Source: Paraburkholderia sp. Tr-20389
GTDB lineage: Bacteria; Pseudomonadota; Gammaproteobacteria; Burkholderiales; Burkholderiaceae
Direction of reading: 5' to 3'
DNA length: 64,000 nucleotides
Assembly (NCBI RefSeq): GCF_017104565.1
Contig: NZ_JAAGPD010000030.1
Coordinates: 1 to 64,000, forward strand
In this document: one piece after another, positions 1,903 to 11,406 of the stretch
Position numbering within the stretch: the stretch's first letter is position 1
How the letters are laid out: each line of letters begins with the position of its first letter
Position numbers and translations under genes: made by a program
The notes under the pieces: model-generated
Database searches by the model: none
Told to the model about the DNA's origin: nothing
What the model saw: the letters and a program-made list of their open reading frames with translations, nothing else

Positions 1903-1908
1903 GGGCAC

Positions 1909-3000
1909 CTAGCATGTCCGGTCAGACAGTTCCACGTTTAACGAAAAGGTCTGCGGATCAGATTCAACCTTGATTCCGCGATAACGGACCTCTTCTCTCG
2001 CGACCTTCCGGAGCGGCTTCGGCGCGAAGAGTCGGGCGCGCCAAGCAGGTATTCGCCATACTCTTTTCCCCAAACGACAGCAATGTGCCCGGACGCACTC
2101 CTCGCTATAGACCAGCCGCAAACCACCACGCGTTACTAGCTTGGGCCGGGCAGCAGCATGTTGAGGCGCACTCGAAATCACCTGCCAGTAGACCTCCACA
2201 CTATGCGCCCTGAGAAGCCTCGCAACACTCTTGCGGTCATATTCGGACAGCCCCGCCACCTTGACGCGCGAATGCCAAAGGCGCACGAAGCGAACAAACA
2301 TCATCCAAAAATCGCGCATCATGAGCGTTAAGACGTCGGCACCTTGAGCCATCCGGCTTTCACGGGCGTGGAAAATCATCGCGTCATAGGCGACGCCGTA
2401 CGCCACCAGATCACCCACCGCCTGTGCTCGCGCCATACAAAAGGCAGTAACGTTCGCCGCGGCCCAGATTGTTGGCGCACCGTGCACGCCAGGCTGGCAC
2501 AGCGAAAAATAGAAGCAGCACGCACTGAATTCGTCCGTTGGATCATCAGGTATATCGACACCCATTGACTCAACCATATCTCGCATTGCCTCCAGTTCCC
2601 GAAGCGACCAATGGCCCCTGCTTACTATCTCCCAGATCGGCGCGTAAAACAGCGTGGCGACAAGGCTGGTGTGTTTTGAAAGATGTTCAAGACAGGTCGA
2701 AACGATCCCGTTCTTACGTTTTTCAGAACCATCGAACGAAGATGCATAGTCCTGCAGACGTGTGTATCGCTTCCTGACGGTCTCCACGTCTTCCTTCCCG
2801 CAGAACTTTCGAGCGATGCCCCTCGGGCTTGGATCGCCCGCCAGACGGGCCGCGAGGCAATAGAGGAGTCGTGCTTTGATATGGTCGAGATGGAGAGCCC
2901 TGCTCATCTGAGTCAGCAGTGTAGGCCCGAGCCAATCGAACAACAGGTATTGACCGTCCTGCGCCGCATCCGGGGCGACTGGCTCGAAATGCAATGCCAT
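1909..3000 (-). CDS. Hypothetical protein, 363 aa, beside the transposon genes
   Basis: I do not recognise this protein. It is soluble in appearance, rich in Arg, Cys and aromatic residues, with no signal peptide and no clear membrane segment. The first 50 residues contain LLFDWLGPTLL and a repeated-helix look, and the C-terminal 60 residues are strongly basic, which would fit nucleic-acid binding. The ATG at 3000-2998 is preferred over the GTG at 3003-3001 because a GGAG motif lies about 8 bases upstream. It converges on the recombinase gene with only 6 bases between the stop codons, and diverges from the small HTH-like gene across a palindromic intergenic region. This placement suggests an accessory gene of the mobile element. 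Confidence 0.6.
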   Translation of the reverse strand: MALHFEPVAPDAAQDGQYLLFDWLGPTLLTQMSRALHLDHIKARLLYCLAARLAGDPSPRGIARKFCGKEDVETVRKRYTRLQDYASSFDGSEKRKNGIVSTCLEHLSKHTSLVATLFYAPIWEIVSRGHWSLRELEAMRDMVESMGVDIPDDPTDEFSACCFYFSLCQPGVHGAPTIWAAANVTAFCMARAQAVGDLVAYGVAYDAMIFHARESRMAQGADVLTLMMRDFWMMFVRFVRLWHSRVKVAGLSEYDRKSVARLLRAHSVEVYWQVISSAPQHAAARPKLVTRGGLRLVYSEECVRAHCCRLGKRVWRIPAWRARLFAPKPLRKVAREEVRYRGIKVESDPQTFSLNVELSDRTC

Positions 3001-3018
3001 CACCTAATCTCCGAGGGT

Positions 3019-3046
3019 GGGACAAATTTGCAATGAAATTTGTCCC
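3019..3046. promoter_or_regulatory. Palindrome in the divergent promoter region
   Basis: Arms GGGACAAATTT (3019-3029) and AAATTTGTCCC (3036-3046) form a perfect 11-bp inverted repeat around a 6-bp spacer. It sits 19 bp upstream of the leftward hypothetical gene and about 85 bp before the rightward HTH-like gene. An operator is the simplest reading. The GGGACAAATTT arm also resembles the GGACAAAAT-type TnsB sites of Tn7, so a transposon-end role is possible. Confidence 0.6.
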
Positions 3047-3131
3047 GTGCAGTTTTCAGTTGACCTGACTAGTCTGACTGAATGGTACTTCAGGCGACAA
3101 GCATCAACTTCAATCGCGGAGAGGTCAGATC

Positions 3132-3386
3132 ATGACACTATGCGAATGCCAGGACTTTCACGGTGAACCATTACTCCAGACGCATGGCCCGTTAATGGGT
3201 GGACGTCATTTATGGCGCGCGCTTGGTTATCCGACCGCGCAAGCCTTCAGCAAGGCGGTTGAGCGAAACACAGTACCCATCGCAACGTTCCGCATCCCTC
3301 ACCGCCGCGGCCGGTTCGCCCTGACAAACGACGTGGTGCAATGGCTACACCTTGCGTCAGGACGGTCAAACCATGCCCCGTCGTAA
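3132..3386 (+). CDS. Small HTH/AlpA-like DNA-binding protein
   Basis: This 84-residue protein has the look of a winged-helix, AlpA/excisionase-like DNA binder. A helix around GGRHLWRALGY is followed by a basic recognition segment, the IPHRRGRFAL wing and a closing DVVQWL helix. The ATG follows an AGAGG motif at good spacing. It is divergent from the hypothetical gene at 1909-3000 and shares its palindromic upstream region, which would suit autoregulation. Its 3' end faces the Tn7-like operon. It may regulate recombinase or transposase genes; the function is inferred from shape and location only. Confidence 0.55.
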   Translation: MTLCECQDFHGEPLLQTHGPLMGGRHLWRALGYPTAQAFSKAVERNTVPIATFRIPHRRGRFALTNDVVQWLHLASGRSNHAPS

Positions 3387-3433
3387 CAGCGGCAGCTAGC
3401 CGGAACCAGATCATCAATCGAGGAGGAACGACC

Positions 3434-3655
3434 ATGTCTTGATGCCCCTTGGCAGCGCATTCCAGACGAAAACGCCCAAGTGTTGGTGGACACCCGGGCG
3501 CGATCGCACAACTCAGTCAAGTTCTCGCGGAACGACTGCGTTTTAGTGTGGTCCTCCAGCTACCGGAAGTCAAGCCGGGAGTGATGCTCGCACGCTCGTT
3601 GCAGGCAGAGGCCACCCCGCGCATGCCATTTCTCCACCTGTTCGCTCGCCCGTAG
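3434..3655 (+). pseudogene. Possible small broken gene with stop at codon 3
   Basis: A very strong ribosome binding site (GAGGAGGA) stands 6 bases before an ATG at 3434, but the frame reads ATG TCT TGA. The same frame then stays open for about 70 codons to a TAG at 3653-3655. The +1 frame is open for 47 codons and also looks protein-like. This is either a small gene with a nonsense mutation or frameshift, or a recoded or minimal ORF. I do not recognise the product. Apart from this and the next ORF, nothing else is visible between 3387 and 3750, which may include the tnsA-side end of the transposon. Confidence 0.25.
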
Positions 3656-3750
3656 TGCCTCGCACGATCGCATCGCGTGCGAAGCGTTGCGCCGGCGCGC
3701 CCGTTCGCATCGGCGTCAGGCAACAGACTCGGTGCCAGAAGGAGGAAGAG

Positions 3751-3861
3751 ATGAACCAGCTGTCAGCCGGCGATCACCGGCATCGACCCGGCCATTTAAC
3801 CAGGTGTGCGGGCGCGGATGCATCGAACCGACGCCCTATTTCCCAGCAGAGGCGATCATGA
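3751..3861 (+). CDS. 36-codon leader ORF translationally coupled to tnsA
   Basis: An ATG at 3751 is preceded by AGAAGGAGGAAGAG, one of the strongest ribosome binding sites in the window. The 36-residue basic peptide ends in a TGA at 3859-3861 that overlaps the ATG of tnsA (3858-3860) as ATGA. The arrangement suggests translational coupling: ribosomes finishing the leader would restart on tnsA, whose own ribosome binding site is modest. The peptide is rich in His and Arg, with no recognised motif. It could be a regulatory leader or a shortened gene. Confidence 0.45.
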   Translation: MNQLSAGDHRHRPGHLTRCAGADASNRRPISQQRRS

Positions 3862-4754
3862 GCCACAACCCACTCATGGAATTGATAGACCGTGGCGTAG
3901 GTCAAGGACATCTTGATGAATACACGCCGTTCTGGCAGGTGGTTCGAGGAAACGCCACCCGTTTCGGCTTGCAGTCGACAGGACCCCTGCCGGGATACCG
4001 CCGCGCCAGCAGCTTCCAGCAGCGACCGCTTCGGCACGCCGCCATACTGGCGCTATGGATTGGCGCACGCGATGCGCGAGAGAGCTACCCACTCTGGCCG
4101 TTTGCCCATCCTCATCCACTCTCCGGCTGGCCGTTTGGCAAGCCCGTGACTTTCACCTGCCGTGGACTACTCGACATCATCGATGGCAAAAACGAGCGAC
4201 AACATATTCATAGGCGAGCGAACACGGGTTCGGTGCCGATCGTCAATCTGATGCTGACTTGCGGTCCGCGCGAAGCGCCCCACTGCATCATGATGAGTTG
4301 CCGGTCGCTCGGAGACAATCCTGACGCCCGCGCCCGTGCATCTGACACCGATGTCAGGTACTGCAGGCGCTACGCCGACGCGAACAGCATCCCATACACG
4401 GAATTCGACCCGCACTGCGTTGCACGTCCCCTTATGGACAACCTGCTGGTCTGCTCGTATGCCGTCAACGCTGTCAGACGCGATATTGCGCCTGACACCC
4501 TGTATCGCGTTGAAGCGGAATTACTTCTGCAACTGGAACGGGAAACGATTGTCGACGCGGTGCGCCGCACGGCCAGCAAGCTCGGCGTGCACGAACGGCA
4601 CGTCTGGACCGTGTTCACCTATATGCAGTGGACACAGTCGATCGACATTGACCTCCGCTATCGCATCTTTCATACCGAGCGCCCGATCCCTGGCGGTCGC
4701 GCGTTGAAAGCCGCCCTTGCACGTCTTCTTCTGGGGGACGCATCGTGGACATGA
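3858..4754 (+). CDS. tnsA: TnsA-like protein, catalytic residues apparently lost
   Basis: TnsA normally nicks the 5' ends of Tn7-type elements and binds TnsB and TnsC. The N-terminus carries the family signature GVGQGHLDEYTPFW (residues 13-26), matching GRGQGHxxxYxPW of Tn7 TnsA. RESYPLWP (74-81) aligns with REQFPLLP, and the segment near 168-197 aligns with the end of the nuclease domain. By eye, however, Tn7 E63 falls on R59, D114 on P127/I128, and the QxK pair (Q130, K132) on M145 and S147. The protein thus looks like a structural, non-cutting TnsA. The start is at 3858 (298 aa), with AGAGGCG upstream and ATGA overlap with the leader; the frame is open back to 3687. It overlaps tnsB. Confidence 0.78.
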   Translation: MSHNPLMELIDRGVGQGHLDEYTPFWQVVRGNATRFGLQSTGPLPGYRRASSFQQRPLRHAAILALWIGARDARESYPLWPFAHPHPLSGWPFGKPVTFTCRGLLDIIDGKNERQHIHRRANTGSVPIVNLMLTCGPREAPHCIMMSCRSLGDNPDARARASDTDVRYCRRYADANSIPYTEFDPHCVARPLMDNLLVCSYAVNAVRRDIAPDTLYRVEAELLLQLERETIVDAVRRTASKLGVHERHVWTVFTYMQWTQSIDIDLRYRIFHTERPIPGGRALKAALARLLLGDASWT

Positions 4755-7036
4755 TACGCATTGGATCGATCCTCATTCCCTCGTGCGATGAGGCCCCATA
4801 CAAGTTTCCCCGCCGCGTCCTGACCGCGGATGCGGGAGGCTACTGGCTGATCCCCGTGGATTTCGACGGTCGCCGCAAGTATGCACACGGCCCGCACTTC
4901 GTTGACGCCACATACCTCCACTCTGCCGTCAGCGACGGCAGATTACGCATCGGCGATTTCAAGTGCCCCGTGCTATGGCAGGCGCAGGATGAAGATCTCA
5001 ACCGCTGGTTTGGTGGATCAACGAAAGCGCCATGCAAAATCATTCAGGTCCGCGAGCGAGCCTATACGGCAATCCAGCCGTATATCAGCAATACGTCGAT
5101 TCACGAGGCATTGACGACGAAAAGCTACACCAACTGGATCCGCGAAACGAGCAAAGCCACAGGTCACTCCCAAGCCTACCTATATGATGCACTTCACCGC
5201 CTATGGGCAGGCGATGAGAAAAATGCGCTGCTGGGCCTGACCTGCTACAACGGTGGGCGCGGAAAGCCGAAGAAGCAGACACGCAAGCTGGGGCGCCCGA
5301 ACGCGCTTGACGCAGTCGCAGGTCGTGCAAGCAGTGGATTGGCGCTCTCTGACGAAGACAAGATCAAATTGCAATGCGGATGGCAATGTTTCGTCAGCGA
5401 CGGCAGGTCGGTCAGACAGGCACATCTGGAGACCGCCCGGACCTTCTACGCCGTCACGCCGGAAACCGGCAACGGCAACGAAGAGACCGTCCTGGCGGAT
5501 GCAGACAAACGTCCCACGCTGCGCCAGTTCCGCTACTGGGGGCCACGCGGCGATCCTGCCCAGTCGGCTACACGCCGGATGCTTGGGGAACATGAATACC
5601 GGCTTAACCACCTGGGTATGCACGGGTCGGCAACGGACGGGATCCGGGCAGTTGGCCAACGCGGATGGATTGATTCTAGTGGCGGCGATGTACGGCTGTC
5701 GTCCATCACACACCGGGCGACCGAAGTCGGCATCGCTACTTATCTCGATGTCATGGAGGCATTGACGCAAGTCATCTGCGGCGTCTATATCGGATTTGAA
5801 CCCCCGTCCGCCCGGGTCTTTCTGCTCGCTGCAGCCCATGCCGCTCTGTCCAAGGAGGCGTGGTGTGCACGCTTCGGCATCAGTGGCGTTACAGACGATA
5901 TGATTCCGAGTCTGCGTTTTGAGGAATTATTTCACGACAATGGCGAAGGTCGAAACGCACAGACGATGCGGGTGTACCTGAAAGCCTGGGAAGGCTGGAT
6001 TGAATTTGCTCCCGCTGGGGATGGCCGCGCGAAGGGGACGATAGAAGGTGATCATCATCTGCGTCATCTCGATGTCGATCACCGGCTACCTGGCACGACA
6101 CATCCACCGCCGGGCACCAAACCGACTCCTGCAATCGTCAACTACTACGAATATGTCGGACACCATATTCATCGCATCATCTATCACAACGCCATCGAGG
6201 TCGCCCCCGCGCATCTGATCACGGGCGAGATGCGAAACGAACTGGACGCCACTGCAACCCGGATGGACGTGTTTCGTTGGTATGTCCGCCACGGGTATGT
6301 CACGAGCCCCCCGCCCGATCCGGAAATGATACGGGCACACATGCTCCCGTCGTTTCCCGCGACCATTACCGAACGTGGCATCTTTTTGCACCGTCCGGAT
6401 CGTGGGAACAAAAAGGAGTATGTGCAGCGATGCCGGTATGTGAACGAATACCTGGTCGAATCGGGCCTGCTCGAGGCCGCGAGAAGGAAGGTAATCCCGG
6501 CAGAGATTTCCCTTGATCCCAATGACCTCAGTGTCGCCTGGTTTCGGACCCGGGACGAGGGTCTCCTTCAACTCCGGAACGTTTACCCCGACGAGTGGCT
6601 TATCCGGCACTGCACACTGGATGAATTGCTGATGCTTCAGGACAGGGACCATCTGACACTACTGGCGAACACATCAGGCGCCGAGCAAAAGGCGGTCGAC
6701 TTCATGGACAGACAGGCCGCCTCAGTGTCGTCGTCTATCAATGCTAGAACGAATGAAACCGAACTCACTAGGCCGACTCACCAGGGGGCGGGGACAGGCG
6801 GCGCCGATGTGAAACAGAAGGAGACCGACCTGCTCGAACAGCGCGGCCTGGCCGATCCGACAGGAAAACGGACTGGCACCCGGTGCTCCCCCTCCACAGC
6901 CGTTGAACCTGACCACGGCGGGTTCCCCGCCCAGCCATCCATCCCCAACGATCCCGTTCCGGCGCAGGACGACGAAACGTTCGACGATGTCCTTGACGCG
7001 ATCCGCCACTTCGAAGATGAGGAGAATCCGAAATGA
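4745..7036 (+). CDS. tnsB: TnsB-like DDE transposase
   Basis: This 763-residue transposase would recognise the transposon ends and join 3' ends to target DNA. The rve/Mu-type catalytic triad is intact: D310 (GWIDSS), D398 (FHDNGEG) and E434 (GTIEGD), with the 35-residue spacing expected for D2-E. IGFEPPSA between them is typical of TnsB and TniA. N-terminal residues 1-280 hold the end-binding helices, and a C-terminal tail from about 650 is polar and low-complexity, as in the TnsC-contacting tails of this family. The GTG at 4745 has GGGGGA at good spacing. The ATG at 4751 makes an ATGA overlap with the tnsA stop and is an alternative. It overlaps tnsC by ATGA. Confidence 0.9.
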   Translation: MDMIRIGSILIPSCDEAPYKFPRRVLTADAGGYWLIPVDFDGRRKYAHGPHFVDATYLHSAVSDGRLRIGDFKCPVLWQAQDEDLNRWFGGSTKAPCKIIQVRERAYTAIQPYISNTSIHEALTTKSYTNWIRETSKATGHSQAYLYDALHRLWAGDEKNALLGLTCYNGGRGKPKKQTRKLGRPNALDAVAGRASSGLALSDEDKIKLQCGWQCFVSDGRSVRQAHLETARTFYAVTPETGNGNEETVLADADKRPTLRQFRYWGPRGDPAQSATRRMLGEHEYRLNHLGMHGSATDGIRAVGQRGWIDSSGGDVRLSSITHRATEVGIATYLDVMEALTQVICGVYIGFEPPSARVFLLAAAHAALSKEAWCARFGISGVTDDMIPSLRFEELFHDNGEGRNAQTMRVYLKAWEGWIEFAPAGDGRAKGTIEGDHHLRHLDVDHRLPGTTHPPPGTKPTPAIVNYYEYVGHHIHRIIYHNAIEVAPAHLITGEMRNELDATATRMDVFRWYVRHGYVTSPPPDPEMIRAHMLPSFPATITERGIFLHRPDRGNKKEYVQRCRYVNEYLVESGLLEAARRKVIPAEISLDPNDLSVAWFRTRDEGLLQLRNVYPDEWLIRHCTLDELLMLQDRDHLTLLANTSGAEQKAVDFMDRQAASVSSSINARTNETELTRPTHQGAGTGGADVKQKETDLLEQRGLADPTGKRTGTRCSPSTAVEPDHGGFPAQPSIPNDPVPAQDDETFDDVLDAIRHFEDEENPK

Positions 7037-8589
7037 CCACGAGGAAACCCAAGCTCACGTCCCGGGAAGCGCTCGACGCAGCCTTTGGCCCCAACCCTCT
7101 GCTTGATCCGCTTGACCCCCTGATCGAAGTGGAACGTATGCCAGCGGCGCTTTCGCATCGGCCCCTGCAGAACGTGCCATGGAGAGATGTGGACCCCAAA
7201 CAGCGGATCGATTTTCTGAACCTGATGCAAAGCCAGTTCGTCCCGACACCGGATGCCGTCGAAATCGCCCTAGCCATCCAACAGATGATCCGTGCGAGCT
7301 ACATCGAGCGGCATCCGGCACTGCCTTGCAACCGCCGGCGTCGCATGGAAATTGCCACCCTCGACCCGGCGAAACTCCCAAGCGCTTCGTGGTTTCCGGG
7401 ATTCGCTCGGGCTGTCATCGTGGAGGGCATCACTGGTCTGGGTAAAACCTTTATGAAAGACCGCATTCTTTCCCTTTATCCGCAGGTGCACAGACACGGC
7501 AGATTCGAGGCAGGCGGATGGGAAAAACAGGCGCAGATCATCTACCTCGACGTAACAATGAGTGCGGACAGTTCGCGCCTGGGCTTCCTGGACAATATCC
7601 TTCTTGCCATTGATAACGCCTTACGAGACATTGACGACCCCTCAGGAGACACCCACTACTATGAAACATACGGTGGTCCGAAGTCACGGATGAGCACCGA
7701 GAAGGTTATGGTCATAATCGGACAGATACTTAGCCAGTATTATTGCGGACTACTGGTTATCGATGAAATTCAGGATCGAAACTTCTCGACGAATCGGGAA
7801 CTGATACTTCTATTCTTCCTGCGCCTTCTTAATTTCGGGATTCCCATCATGCTCCTTGGCAATCCCAAGGGTTTTTCCGGTTTTGAACAATCCGCACAGG
7901 ATACCCGACGCCTGTACAAGGGCGGTCACTTTGAACTGTGGCCGGCAACCGACGGGAGAGACAGGGCATGGAGAAGCTACGTATCCGGAAAACTGCAGGA
8001 TAACCTCCTACCGCTGTCGTTTCCGGTTGACGATACCGCACACGATGAGTTCTACCGATGCTCAGGAGGGGTACGCGACTATTTCGACACCCTCCTGGGC
8101 GCCATGCAGGAACGGGGGCTCAGGAAAAACCTTGGTGAAATCCCGTTTGAGTATATCGCTGAGACCTACTCAGGCAGGAGGATGAAAAAATATCACGGGA
8201 CGATCAACGCGCTTGTGAAGAAGGATATCAACGAACTAGCGAAAAACACCGATATGCCGCTTGAACTCTTCGCGAAACGCTGGAAGATGTCACTGCCAGC
8301 CAGCGAATCATCATCCGCCACAACTCTGTCTGACAATCCCGGAGTGGCAGGCAACGAAGCCTTCGGTAAAGGAGCAAAAAAGGCCAACCAGACAAGGTAC
8401 AAGTCACCCGAGCAGCGCAGGAAACAGGCCGATGCGATGTTCCGCAAGCGACAGGATCATGCGGCAAACGCACAACAGGCTGCCCAGGACGCAAAATCAC
8501 CAATGTCCGATCAGGACCAGACAGAGATCAACCGGGCCGAACTGGTGGCACGCGCAAAAGAACTGGCCCGTGTAACGTCGAAAAAGTAG
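7033..8589 (+). CDS. tnsC: TnsC-like AAA+ transposition regulator
   Basis: TnsC is the ATP-dependent switch that links target selection to the TnsAB transposase. Walker A is GITGLGKT (residues 132-139), and Walker B is LLVIDE with D244 and E245. A sensor-1-like LLGNP follows. At 518 residues it is close to Tn7 TnsC (about 555). The last 100 residues are charged and rich in Gln and Lys, likely a flexible tail. The ATG is in an ATGA overlap with the tnsB stop. A strong terminator follows 20 bases after the stop, which closes the tnsABC transcription unit. Confidence 0.9.
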   Translation: MTTRKPKLTSREALDAAFGPNPLLDPLDPLIEVERMPAALSHRPLQNVPWRDVDPKQRIDFLNLMQSQFVPTPDAVEIALAIQQMIRASYIERHPALPCNRRRRMEIATLDPAKLPSASWFPGFARAVIVEGITGLGKTFMKDRILSLYPQVHRHGRFEAGGWEKQAQIIYLDVTMSADSSRLGFLDNILLAIDNALRDIDDPSGDTHYYETYGGPKSRMSTEKVMVIIGQILSQYYCGLLVIDEIQDRNFSTNRELILLFFLRLLNFGIPIMLLGNPKGFSGFEQSAQDTRRLYKGGHFELWPATDGRDRAWRSYVSGKLQDNLLPLSFPVDDTAHDEFYRCSGGVRDYFDTLLGAMQERGLRKNLGEIPFEYIAETYSGRRMKKYHGTINALVKKDINELAKNTDMPLELFAKRWKMSLPASESSSATTLSDNPGVAGNEAFGKGAKKANQTRYKSPEQRRKQADAMFRKRQDHAANAQQAAQDAKSPMSDQDQTEINRAELVARAKELARVTSKK

Positions 8590-8608
8590 TTGATCCCCGC
8601 CCAGCGTG

Positions 8609-8637
8609 CCAGCGAGCAGCCAATGCTCGCTGGTTTT
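8609..8637 (+). terminator. Intrinsic terminator between tnsC and tnsD
   Basis: Arms CCAGCGAGCA (8609-8618) and TGCTCGCTGG (8624-8633) form a perfect 10-bp stem with a 5-base loop, directly followed by TTTT. This is the cleanest Rho-independent terminator in the window. It separates the core transposition genes from the target selector. Confidence 0.85.
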
Positions 8638-8681
8638 GCGGCCGCCCAGACTCGTCGTGATCATTGCAATCAGAAGGTAAC

Positions 8682-10301
8682 ATGGAAATTCCCATCGTCC
8701 CGCTTATGCCGACTGGAGCGACCCTTGGCTCGTTCGCCACAGCGATCAAATTACACAATACCTTTGAATCTGCCTCCAGCACCCGATCAATGTTATTTGG
8801 AACATTGGGTGGTTTAGGATTGGACATCTTTGGACAAGGCGTACTGAAGTGTAGCCAGATCATACGTAGCGGGGCTTTCGCCGACAGGAACCATACCCTT
8901 GAGCACCACACACTGTGGCCATTCTTTGCGTATGCTCTTCCCGCACCGTTCCGGGAACAATGGCGCGCCGCTCAGCTTTCATCATCCGTCTTTCCCTGGA
9001 GAGCATATCTTCACGGGCTTTCGCTCCAAGGTCTCATTAAAGCCAATTCGTGCGCTTGCCTAGCATGCGTGGAAGATGACTTCAACCGCTACGGTATCGC
9101 TTATTGGCGCACCTATCATCAATTGCCGGGAATTGAACATTGCATCAAACATTTGGCGCCGCTTATCTCGCAGTGCCATGCATGTGGAACGTTGATCCAA
9201 GCCGGTAGGTATTCACTGCCATCGATGATCTGCGCTTCATGCGGCTTACAGCTAGTTGCTCGACGAACTGCCGGCTGTCCCGCTCCATACTGGAAAGTAC
9301 TAGAGATTATAAGAATGTTGTTCGATGGTAGCTGGCAGGCAATCACACCTGATTTTAGTCGACCCTATTATCAAAGGGCACTTTGCAACATTGCGCTCTT
9401 TCCGCTCAACGACAACAATCTCCAAACGATTCTATCGGCGATATTGCGCAGGTGGAAAATGCGTTCAATTTCCGATCTATTTTCTTTCTTCAAGGTATCA
9501 ACCACGAAGACGACAGCGACGAAAAAAATGTGGTCTGCGTTATCCGGAATGAATTTCGATGTTAACCCATTTATATATATCCTGTTGATCGAGCACTTCC
9601 GTTCAACACAAAAACAGTTACCAGATTTGTTTTCTGTGCGCGAAATGCAACCCGAGATTGAAGAATACAGATTTCCGTTTGCTCCGGGACCTTTTTCGTT
9701 GCCACAGGACAAGCAGAATGAAGTTCTTGAAGCGTTAGATGCTTCCGGAATCCAACGAAATGTTCTCTACGAACTGGCTACCGGAGTTAGTTGGGGAATA
9801 ATTCGAAGAAGAGATAGCCTATCAAACTTTAAAGTTTCAAAGCTTTATTCGCAGATTCCCTGGTTTCGGCTGTATTTTTCTCTGATAGGTTCGGAGAAAT
9901 GGTCAAGAAACCTCTATGCGAGCAACATGCGATCCAGCCGCCTCAAGGACAGTACCTACCGAAAAACAGCCGAAAGATGTGCGGCCCTAGGCTCCGACGG
10001 CCTAGAAAATTTGTATAGGAACCATCGAAAGGCGTACAACTACCTGCGAAAGCATGATCGGGACTTTCTACGCAGAGTGGGACTTAGTACAAGAAGGGAA
10101 CGTCGAGAAGTGCTAACCCCTGAAACGTGCATGCCGAGGATTCTCAAGCTTATCAACGATCCGCGCAAGCTAAGTCGTACCGAAATTTGGCGGTCAGATA
10201 AGCCTGCGATGTTATATGCGTCCAAACATTGCTACGCATGGCTACAGGAAATTTTACCTCCGTCTCGACGCAACGGTTTGGCCAAAAAACTGGGAAACTA
10301 A
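8682..10301 (+). CDS. tnsD: TnsD/TniQ-like target-selection protein
   Basis: TnsD/TniQ proteins bind a target site and recruit TnsC. Family landmarks are clear: HTLWPFFAYALP (residues 76-87), the zinc cluster C126/C129/C154/H157, the block YWRTYHQLPG (141-150), and a second Cys set C165/C168/C184/C187. The protein has 539 residues, close to Tn7 TnsD (508), with a long basic C-terminus, which favours sequence-specific site targeting over a short TniQ. The ATG at 8682 has AGAAGG upstream; a TTG at 8664 would add six residues. The gene is visibly more AT-rich than tnsABC, with more A/T-ending codons, and lies beyond a terminator. It looks like a module of separate origin with its own promoter. 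No tnsE or cas gene follows. Confidence 0.88.
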   Translation: MEIPIVPLMPTGATLGSFATAIKLHNTFESASSTRSMLFGTLGGLGLDIFGQGVLKCSQIIRSGAFADRNHTLEHHTLWPFFAYALPAPFREQWRAAQLSSSVFPWRAYLHGLSLQGLIKANSCACLACVEDDFNRYGIAYWRTYHQLPGIEHCIKHLAPLISQCHACGTLIQAGRYSLPSMICASCGLQLVARRTAGCPAPYWKVLEIIRMLFDGSWQAITPDFSRPYYQRALCNIALFPLNDNNLQTILSAILRRWKMRSISDLFSFFKVSTTKTTATKKMWSALSGMNFDVNPFIYILLIEHFRSTQKQLPDLFSVREMQPEIEEYRFPFAPGPFSLPQDKQNEVLEALDASGIQRNVLYELATGVSWGIIRRRDSLSNFKVSKLYSQIPWFRLYFSLIGSEKWSRNLYASNMRSSRLKDSTYRKTAERCAALGSDGLENLYRNHRKAYNYLRKHDRDFLRRVGLSTRRERREVLTPETCMPRILKLINDPRKLSRTEIWRSDKPAMLYASKHCYAWLQEILPPSRRNGLAKKLGN

Positions 10302-10743
10302 GATTACAATACGCTAAAACAGGCAAATAATACCTAAGCACTCATGCATCGAAGAACGATTTGAGCCGTCTTCTGAAATATTCCGCCAGTTGGTCAGCAA
10401 AAACTATCACGAATCGCAATAACTATCAGTTTTTATGTTAATTGATCACGGACACCAGGCTGTTAAGCCGATTGACTCGATATCGGCCTCAGCGGACGCC
10501 CGGCGATACGAGCCGCGAGTCGACTTCAGGTCAGGTTGCTGCCATTCGCAAACTGGCATCGACGAATGACGCTTCCCACTGTCAATGAACGAGTCCCAAA
10601 ACGGTCCTTTGATTCCGTGTACCTTAGGTACAACGGCCGTTCGGGGCAGTGATGTCGCCCGGAGGTTCATTGGACCCTTGCGACATCACTGGTCAATGCC
10701 ATGCAACGCTATGGCGAAGAAAACCGGTTGTAATTCGTCGACC
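10302..10743. other. Intergenic region after tnsD with probable mobile-element remnants
   Basis: No convincing gene is seen. The first 130 bases are AT-rich, with two AACTATCA copies 19 bp apart (10402-10409 and 10421-10428), a spacing that could suit transposase binding sites. The 27-bp motif repeated at 33053 follows. From 10446 to 10670 a 74-codon leftward frame is open, but it has no recognisable product and is probably debris. This stretch is the best place for the far end of the Tn7-like element if it carries no cargo. Confidence 0.5.
10429..10455. repeat. 27-bp near-repeat (partner at 33053-33079), likely IS-end remnant
   Basis: The 19-mer GTTAATTGATCACGGACAC (10437-10455) is identical to 33061-33079. 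The eight bases before it match in six positions (GTTTTTAT against GTTTTCAA). Both copies have the same orientation. The ...GGACA edge would suit an insertion-sequence terminus ending in CA, but no transposase gene is attached to either copy. Confidence 0.6.
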
Positions 10744-11406
10744 TTATGAGAGCGTCCCTATGCGGTAGCCCACCCCTCGCACATTGTGGATTGCGTCTCC
10801 GCCCAATTTGCGGCGCAGATTGTGAACATGCACCTGGATGGCGTTACTCTCGATCTCCTCGTTCCACCCGTATAGGCGGTCCTCAAGTTGTGCACGCGTG
10901 ACGACGATTGCTGGATCGCGCATTAGCTCCTGCAACAATGCGAACTCTCGCGTCGTCACCGATACCTCCTTATCGCGTAGCCACACGCGGTGTTGCGCGG
11001 GATCGAGCCTCAGCGCCCCGACCTGCAGTAACGGTCGCATGTGCCCAGTCTGATGCCGGCTCACGACACGAATGCGGGCCAGAAGATCATCGAGTGTGAA
11101 GGGCTTGACGATGTAGTCGTCGGCGCCTTCGTCCAGGCCCACCACCGCTTCCGGAATGGCACCGCGATCTGCGATAAGAACCACGGGCGTCGCGTCATTT
11201 CGCTGCCGCAGCCGTTCGAGCAAAGTCAGGCCGTCATTTCCAGACAAACCGATATCGAGCAAGACCGCCCCGTACGAGGTCGTGCGAAGCGCAAGCATGG
11301 CTGATTCTGCATCCTTCACCGAATCAATGGCGAAGCCCGCCTTGTGCAAGCCGTGCTTCAACCCATCGTCTATCAATGCGTCAGGCCCCACGACCAATAT
11401 GCGCAT
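10744..11406 (-). CDS. Orphan OmpR-type response regulator
   Basis: This 220-residue two-component regulator has an N-terminal receiver domain and a C-terminal winged helix (HVHNLRRKL, RGVGYRIG). The phospho-acceptor Asp (AVLLD) and the KPF lysine are present. The acidic pocket is altered: most relatives have EDD or DDD after the first strand, and here it reads GPD, so phosphorylation may be weakened. The ATG at 11406 follows ACGGGGAACAC; a GTG 18 bases upstream is an alternative. No histidine kinase lies on either side. It is similar along its full length to the regulator at 16526, including the LRTT-YG and ELMRDP segments. A CTTAAG-type box lies about 217 bp upstream. Confidence 0.88.
   Translation of the reverse strand: MRILVVGPDALIDDGLKHGLHKAGFAIDSVKDAESAMLALRTTSYGAVLLDIGLSGNDGLTLLERLRQRNDATPVVLIADRGAIPEAVVGLDEGADDYIVKPFTLDDLLARIRVVSRHQTGHMRPLLQVGALRLDPAQHRVWLRDKEVSVTTREFALLQELMRDPAIVVTRAQLEDRLYGWNEEIESNAIQVHVHNLRRKLGGDAIHNVRGVGYRIGTLS

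Follow-up and report, generated by a model that had tools for sequence, protein, structure and literature searches.

The first 64 kb of a 140,186-bp contig (NZ_JAAGPD010000030.1) of Paraburkholderia sp. Tr-20389 carry a tnsA-tnsB-tnsC module followed by a tniQ/tnsD-family gene at 3858..10301. This 64-kb stretch is referred to here as the window, and its position 1 is the start of the contig; the genome is 9.0 Mb in 129 contigs, with contamination given as 4.66%. The four genes are consecutive open reading frames (ORFs) on the plus strand, all of them open and full length. Loss of both catalytic acids from the TnsA nuclease is well supported by alignment and, judged from the sequences compared, is unique within a set of 53 other TnsA proteins. 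We consider the case evenly balanced that the module is the core of a divergent Tn7-like element whose TnsA is dead as a nuclease but kept as a protein, and which, if still mobile, would transpose by a copy-in route. The features of the module were assigned as follows.

3858..4754, plus strand: tnsA, 298 amino acids (aa), catalytic acids lost; it lies inside a longer ORF starting at 3687
4029..4031, plus strand: codon of L58 (CTT), at the position of Tn7 E63 by alignment to Tn7 TnsA
4245..4247, plus strand: codon of N130, at the position of Tn7 D114 by alignment to Tn7 TnsA
4296..4304, plus strand: codons of S147, C148, and R149, with S147 at the position of Tn7 Q130 and R149 (CGG) at that of Tn7 K132
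4751..4754, plus strand: ATGA, the tnsA stop overlapping a possible tnsB start (ATG at 4751; the ORF list has GTG at 4745)
4745..7036, plus strand: tnsB, a DDE transposase of 763 aa with the triad D310/D398/E434
7033..8589, plus strand: tnsC, an AAA+ ATPase of 518 aa with an ATGA overlap with tnsB
8664..10301, plus strand: tniQ/tnsD-family target-selection gene, 545 aa from a TTG start (first ATG at 8682)

The window TnsA had no Pfam or NCBIfam match at E up to 1. Its homology was revealed by a profile combining it with five relatives; this profile matched Tn7 TnsA (1F1Z) at 4.7e-26. Tn7 TnsA residues E63, D114, Q130, and K132 aligned with L58, N130, S147, and R149 of the window protein. The original prediction, made from the DNA alone, had read R, P/I, M, and S at these positions, which was wrong; its claim of a lost active site held for the catalytic E and D but not for Q130 as a family constant, as Q occurs there in only 3/53 of the other TnsA proteins. 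These 53 proteins (44 clusters at 70% identity, several of them cut at the locus end) excluded the window, the Tn7 fragment, L018 with its split tnsA, and copies with identical last 230 residues, and three further loci (L014, L025, L026) gave no TnsA match and were therefore absent from the count. The E63 position was E in 53/53 and the D114 position D in 53/53. The TnsA profiles used for this count were built with the window protein among their sequences, and a dead TnsA of great divergence could have escaped them. The K132 position was K in 51 proteins and R in the remaining two, whereas the Q130 position was occupied by A (16), S (13), D (12), T (8), Q (3), or N (1). At the position of Tn7 E149, 38/53 had E and the window had C. 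The telling anomaly is the loss of E and D, since the family varies at the Q position and two other proteins also have R in place of K. The two proteins with R at the K132 position, from L021/L060 and L137 (9352-10173), have E and D intact.

We infer from these sequences that TnsA has lost its cutting activity. That TnsA still cuts, using an active site that has moved or changed, is a very improbable alternative. Catalytic residues can shift position in PD-(D/E)XK families, and the K132 position does tolerate R in the two proteins above that keep E and D. However, the window TnsA offers no local acidic replacement, as there is no acidic residue at 50-71 and E139 alone at 114-152, and the E and D of all 53 other proteins stand in their usual places.

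Sequencing or assembly error in a draft contig was also considered. The original prediction had associated intact sites in close homologues with a local mutation or sequencing error. The homologues' sites are indeed intact, but at ~31% identity or less they do not by themselves show a recent mutation or an error. The position of the window at a contig start with an exact 127-nt repeat (1-127 and 277-403), and the fragmentation and contamination figures of the assembly, would favor an error, but we consider it extremely unlikely because separate codons are hit, Leu CTT and Arg CGG are at least two base changes from Glu/Lys codons, and the frame is open. A hidden frameshift in tnsA was rejected: frameshift-aware alignment to the relatives' profile, applied to the window and four control genes, gave zero frameshifts at penalties of 5, 7, 10, and 1000. 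On this sequence evidence, the loss of the catalytic acids is more likely old than an error. No second TnsA was found elsewhere in the genome at E up to 1 (50/50 candidates scored); a Pfam search for one was uninformative, its controls being silent.

The remaining genes of the module are consistent with a transposition machinery. TnsB, also without a Pfam or NCBIfam match, matched Tn7 TnsB at 8.1e-15, and its D310, D398, and E434 were invariant in a 10-sequence TnsB alignment and corresponded to the D, D, and E of Tn7 TnsB (7PIK match), confirming the triad first proposed. TnsC matched AAA_22 in Pfam and Tn7 TnsC at 6.8e-22. The fourth protein had a marginal TniQ match in Pfam (27.4 bits against a cut-off of 27) and no PF15978 (TnsD) match in the same scan. 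It had been named TnsD; its membership of the TniQ/TnsD family stands, and given the missing PF15978 match we prefer "TniQ/TnsD-family protein". Family profiles for the four genes, each including the window member, gave one match apiece in the window. The ORFs and the family and profile matches thus bear out the predicted tnsA-tnsB-tnsC and tniQ/tnsD-family arrangement, and the module fits the usage of Tn7-like transposon (TnsB and TnsC plus TnsA and/or TniQ) in the relevant part of PMC11406308.

Divergence within the module was examined using protein distances to four outgroups, comparing the window with four sibling loci (L053-L056). Over whole proteins, TnsA showed an excess divergence of +0.081 (0.038 to 0.122), and TnsC was not clearly accelerated (+0.020; −0.008 to 0.045). 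The excess in TnsA was regional. Residues 91-175, the nuclease core with the D114, Q130, and K132 positions, showed +0.23 (0.14 to 0.33), and residues 1-48 a smaller +0.12 (0.06 to 0.18). Residues 49-90 had no excess (0.00), although the E63 position lies inside them, and neither did the C-terminal residues 176-298 (−0.01). None of the four siblings, tested alike, had a regional shift like that of the window TnsA. Among TnsA columns invariant in 14 other TnsA proteins, the window keeps 14/20, the lowest share (the next is L017 with 14/16), and the six changed columns include E63 and D114; in TnsC, 1/24 otherwise invariant columns was changed. The TnsA tree placed L053-L056 as sister to the window, with a terminal branch of 1.85 substitutions per site for the window protein. 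With that branch length, and 0.046 nonsense changes possible per missense change in the tnsA codons (~1 per 22), an unconstrained tnsA would be expected to hold stops; none are present. The suggestion that a structural TnsA is kept therefore finds indirect support in the sequences, from the open frame on a long branch, the lack of excess divergence at 49-90 and 176-298, and the intact TnsB triad.

Relatives of the module were distant. The nearest TnsA proteins are ~31% identical and TnsB proteins reach 36%. Searches of 145 genus genomes (best other TnsB match 36%; at most 7 candidates scored per genome), of 398 family, 399 order, and 369 class genomes (at most 2 candidates scored per genome), and of viral contigs and phages yielded no closer relative. 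Plasmids gave three distant records, and a scan of genome contigs returned just one locus, at 31%. The four siblings and an Azonexus plasmid (L016) share the TnsA lineage and the tnsA-tnsB-tnsC order with the window, with TnsB 29-36% identical, but differ in having the TnsA E, D, and K intact in 5/5. L055 (Ralstonia pickettii SSH4), the fourth of the four nearest relatives, also resembles the window in that its TnsA and TnsB are poorly detected by Pfam; its contig stops inside tnsC. Both L055 and L056 differ from the window in having recognizable Tn7-type TnsB sites. These arrays (6920-6992 in L055 and 644-715 in L056) lie directly downstream of a gene resembling iron superoxide dismutase by eye, the downstream flank of which is a possible attachment site of that Tn7-like lineage. 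In L053, L054, and L056, the three siblings besides L055, tnsC and the last gene flank an extra inverted tniQ/tnsD gene of 482-489 aa; in L053 and L056, the two scanned against Pfam, it matches TnsD (PF15978). A Janthinobacterium lividum plasmid (L018, 8854-11564) has tnsA split over two frames and a short tnsB of 579 aa.

Two further features lie upstream of the module.

199-1902: tyrosine recombinase, 2 kb upstream of the module
1909-3003, minus strand: ORF of an unfamiliar family, 364 aa, no credible family match

A 57-aa stretch of the latter is similar to an ORF that neighbors a homologous recombinase in L129. The second copy of the exact 127-nt direct repeat lies inside the recombinase gene, and the repeat may be an assembly edge. 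Recombinase DNA matched over at least 700 bp in 26 of the 142 other genomes searched. We fetched 20 recombinase loci, 17 with a recombinase ORF and three without (L122, L126, L130). In 11/11 loci, comprising the window and 10 chosen from the 17 (L117, L118, L119, L120, L123, L124, L127, L128, L132, L136), the conserved part ends sharply in GAGGGGAGTTTTCC, within two bases (~1850 in the window), with unrelated sequence beyond. Neighboring genes vary and include helicase-, NERD-, and SMC-like genes; in L104 a KfrA-like gene precedes the recombinase. The sharp end at ~1850 resembles the boundary, or an attachment site, of a separate integrative unit. Within 9.5 kb downstream of the recombinase, 3/17 loci had a Tn7-like or Tn5053-like gene (downstream sides only), and three different Tn7-like/Tn5053-like modules lie near this recombinase in other genomes of the genus: L137 (9352-15760) with L120, L117 (5931-12559), and L136 (6493-13107). 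Because of the separate-unit edge, and of the 14/17 loci without a Tn7-like gene within that distance, the idea that the recombinase is the cointegrate resolvase of the element was set aside; it may still act in trans. A tRNA beside the recombinase in L120 and L123, suspected by eye, was not confirmed. On the other side of the module, conserved host DNA starts at 10733-10751, where a response regulator gene has its 3' end (five genomes compared). Between them, 10481-10596 (~115 bp) is probably a dispersed repeat: eight other genomes of the genus have copies of it, 74-87% identical, next to differing genes.

Several results weigh against a retained TnsA in a copy-in element. The dead-TnsA state is known from one sequence in one genome and, with the nearest TnsA ~31% identical, its conservation cannot be shown. 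Excess divergence extended to TnsB (+0.048; 0.026 to 0.073), in which 7/36 otherwise invariant columns were changed with the triad spared (9/38 in L017), and the invariant-column test in TnsA was weak when taken alone (p about 0.08). The TnsA of L017 has a branch of 1.50 with an intact site, so a long branch alone proves nothing, and the TnsB and TnsC trees group the window with L017 (support 0.95 and 0.22), unlike the sibling assumption of the rate test. The tnsA frame could also be kept open by the ATGA overlap, serving tnsB translation and not the TnsA protein. An AlphaFold2 model of TnsA, made from two sequences, was unusable (mean pLDDT 40.1, pTM 0.33); its order of helix 55-76, strands 129-135 and 142-148, and helix 155-175 is presumably what a TnsA core needs, at a confidence too low to use. 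There are 74 bp between tnsC and the last ORF of the window, without a second tniQ such as the inverted gene of the relatives. This also bears on the earlier description of a complete TnsABCD set, which was right about four genes and not about completeness.

The ends of the element add to this side of the balance. A weight matrix built on six TnsB sites, three each from L055 and Tn7, found no Tn7-type TnsB-site array in the window. In the relatives, it found clear arrays in L055 and L056, one moderate site in L059, and no arrays in L053, L054, L057, L058, L016, L017, or L018. A target duplication, sought as TGT before tnsA and ACA after the module with equal 5-bp flanks, was not found among 36 pairs, and no inverted 10-mer was common to 1903-3858 and 10302-10744. 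The sole 5-bp pair before 11000 was CCAGG (3805/10454), 53 bp from tnsA and near chance by hand estimate. Two exact copies of GATAGTTWTTGC, 19 bp apart on the minus strand at 10397-10427, stand just after the last tns gene; we take their ATAGTT core to recall TnsB sites. This sequence has no counterpart before tnsA within 2 mismatches. Since the window starts at a contig end, one end of the element may lie outside it. Products, too, would need careful reading: Tn6022, which encodes TnsA, is reported to give 39.1% cointegrate insertions (PMC10293859, as far as the portion drawn on goes), so a dead TnsA could not be concluded from cointegrates alone.

The missing ends and target duplication are what an immobile remnant would leave, in which the end or ends and the target selector were lost, transposition stopped, and TnsA began to decay first with the frames not yet broken. 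We regard this as doubtful but worth serious attention. The module has one tniQ/tnsD gene fewer than L053, L054, and L056, some excess change has reached TnsB, and the left side adjoins the apparent edge of another integrative unit at ~1850, all of which suit a remnant. Yet four full-length frames remain open, TnsB keeps its DDE triad, acceleration of TnsC is not clear, and in TnsA neither residues 49-90 nor the C-terminal domain exceeds the siblings in divergence; an end may, moreover, have fallen beyond the contig start. The same lack of ends, with a change in TnsA that is regional rather than general and a neighboring recombinase whose homologues have varied neighbor genes, could reflect domestication, in which TnsABC-TniQ serves the host or an island in DNA binding or regulation, with no transposition. 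This is improbable, as the TnsB triad is kept, which is unexpected for a purely structural use, and conserved copies are missing from the 145 genus genomes, where the best other TnsB has 36% identity.

If the module is instead a copy-in element with a retained TnsA, end binding and the nicking and joining of the 3' strands would fall to TnsB, and target choice to TnsC and TniQ. As a partner that does not cut, TnsA would associate with both TnsB and TnsC and assist TnsB in reaching its active form. With no 5' cuts made, the donor would remain attached, and replication across the element would yield a cointegrate, to be resolved by host recombination or by a recombinase acting in trans. We infer the scaffold role, the copy-in products, and continued movement, and the label copy-in element remains interpretive because neither ends nor a target duplication were found. 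More tentatively, the window may represent a natural switch from cut-and-paste to copy-in transposition, with TnsA as a non-cutting activator of TnsB, a pseudo-subunit between Tn7 and the TnsA-less elements. If so, an element that has kept TnsA without its cutting activity would mark a stage between Tn7 and the tnsA-less branches, and donor cutting by TnsA and activation of TnsB would be separated in nature and not just in the laboratory mutants described in the literature sampled. As the TnsA and TnsB of the window have no match and the TnsA proteins of L055 and L058 score below the PF08722 cut-off, Pfam-based surveys may under-count the lineage of the window, L055, and L058.

Known systems provide the framework for this reading, as far as the excerpts of the cited sources extend. 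TnsB cuts and joins the 3' ends and TnsA cuts the 5' ends, and without TnsA cutting replication leads to a cointegrate (PMC11406308). Catalytic point mutations in TnsA abolished cut-and-paste and kept replicative transposition (PMC8649781), and a cryo-EM preprint describes TnsA and TnsC locking TnsB into a competent conformation, with the TnsB N-terminus docked on TnsA (PMC13345079). A dead TnsA kept as a partner of TnsB is a coherent reading because of this mutant and TnsB-activation work. No report of a naturally inactive TnsA was recognized in the portion of the literature searched, which does not establish its absence from print. Compared with Tn7 (TnsABCD; TnsA structures 1F1Z/1T0F), the window has the same order of tnsA-tnsB-tnsC and then a TniQ/TnsD-family gene, with TnsA, TnsB, and TnsC matching, but its TnsA is without E63 and D114, no Tn7-type end array was found, and the PF15978 match is missing. 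The closest functional parallel in these excerpts is VchCAST with TnsA D90A, which pairs TnsB and TnsC with an active-site-altered TnsA and gave >95% cointegrate reads (PMC8188705); that TnsA is laboratory-made, whereas the window TnsA is natural and known here from genes alone. Transposons without tnsA are thought to be replicative and have typically gained a resolvase (PMC8649781), and no resolvase gene, as in Tn5053/Tn402-like elements, is among the four genes of the window. Tn5053-like elements and type V-K CAST resemble the window in that no TnsA cutting, and hence replicative transposition, is expected (PMC11406308, PMC8649781), but they lack tnsA, whereas the window keeps it at full length.

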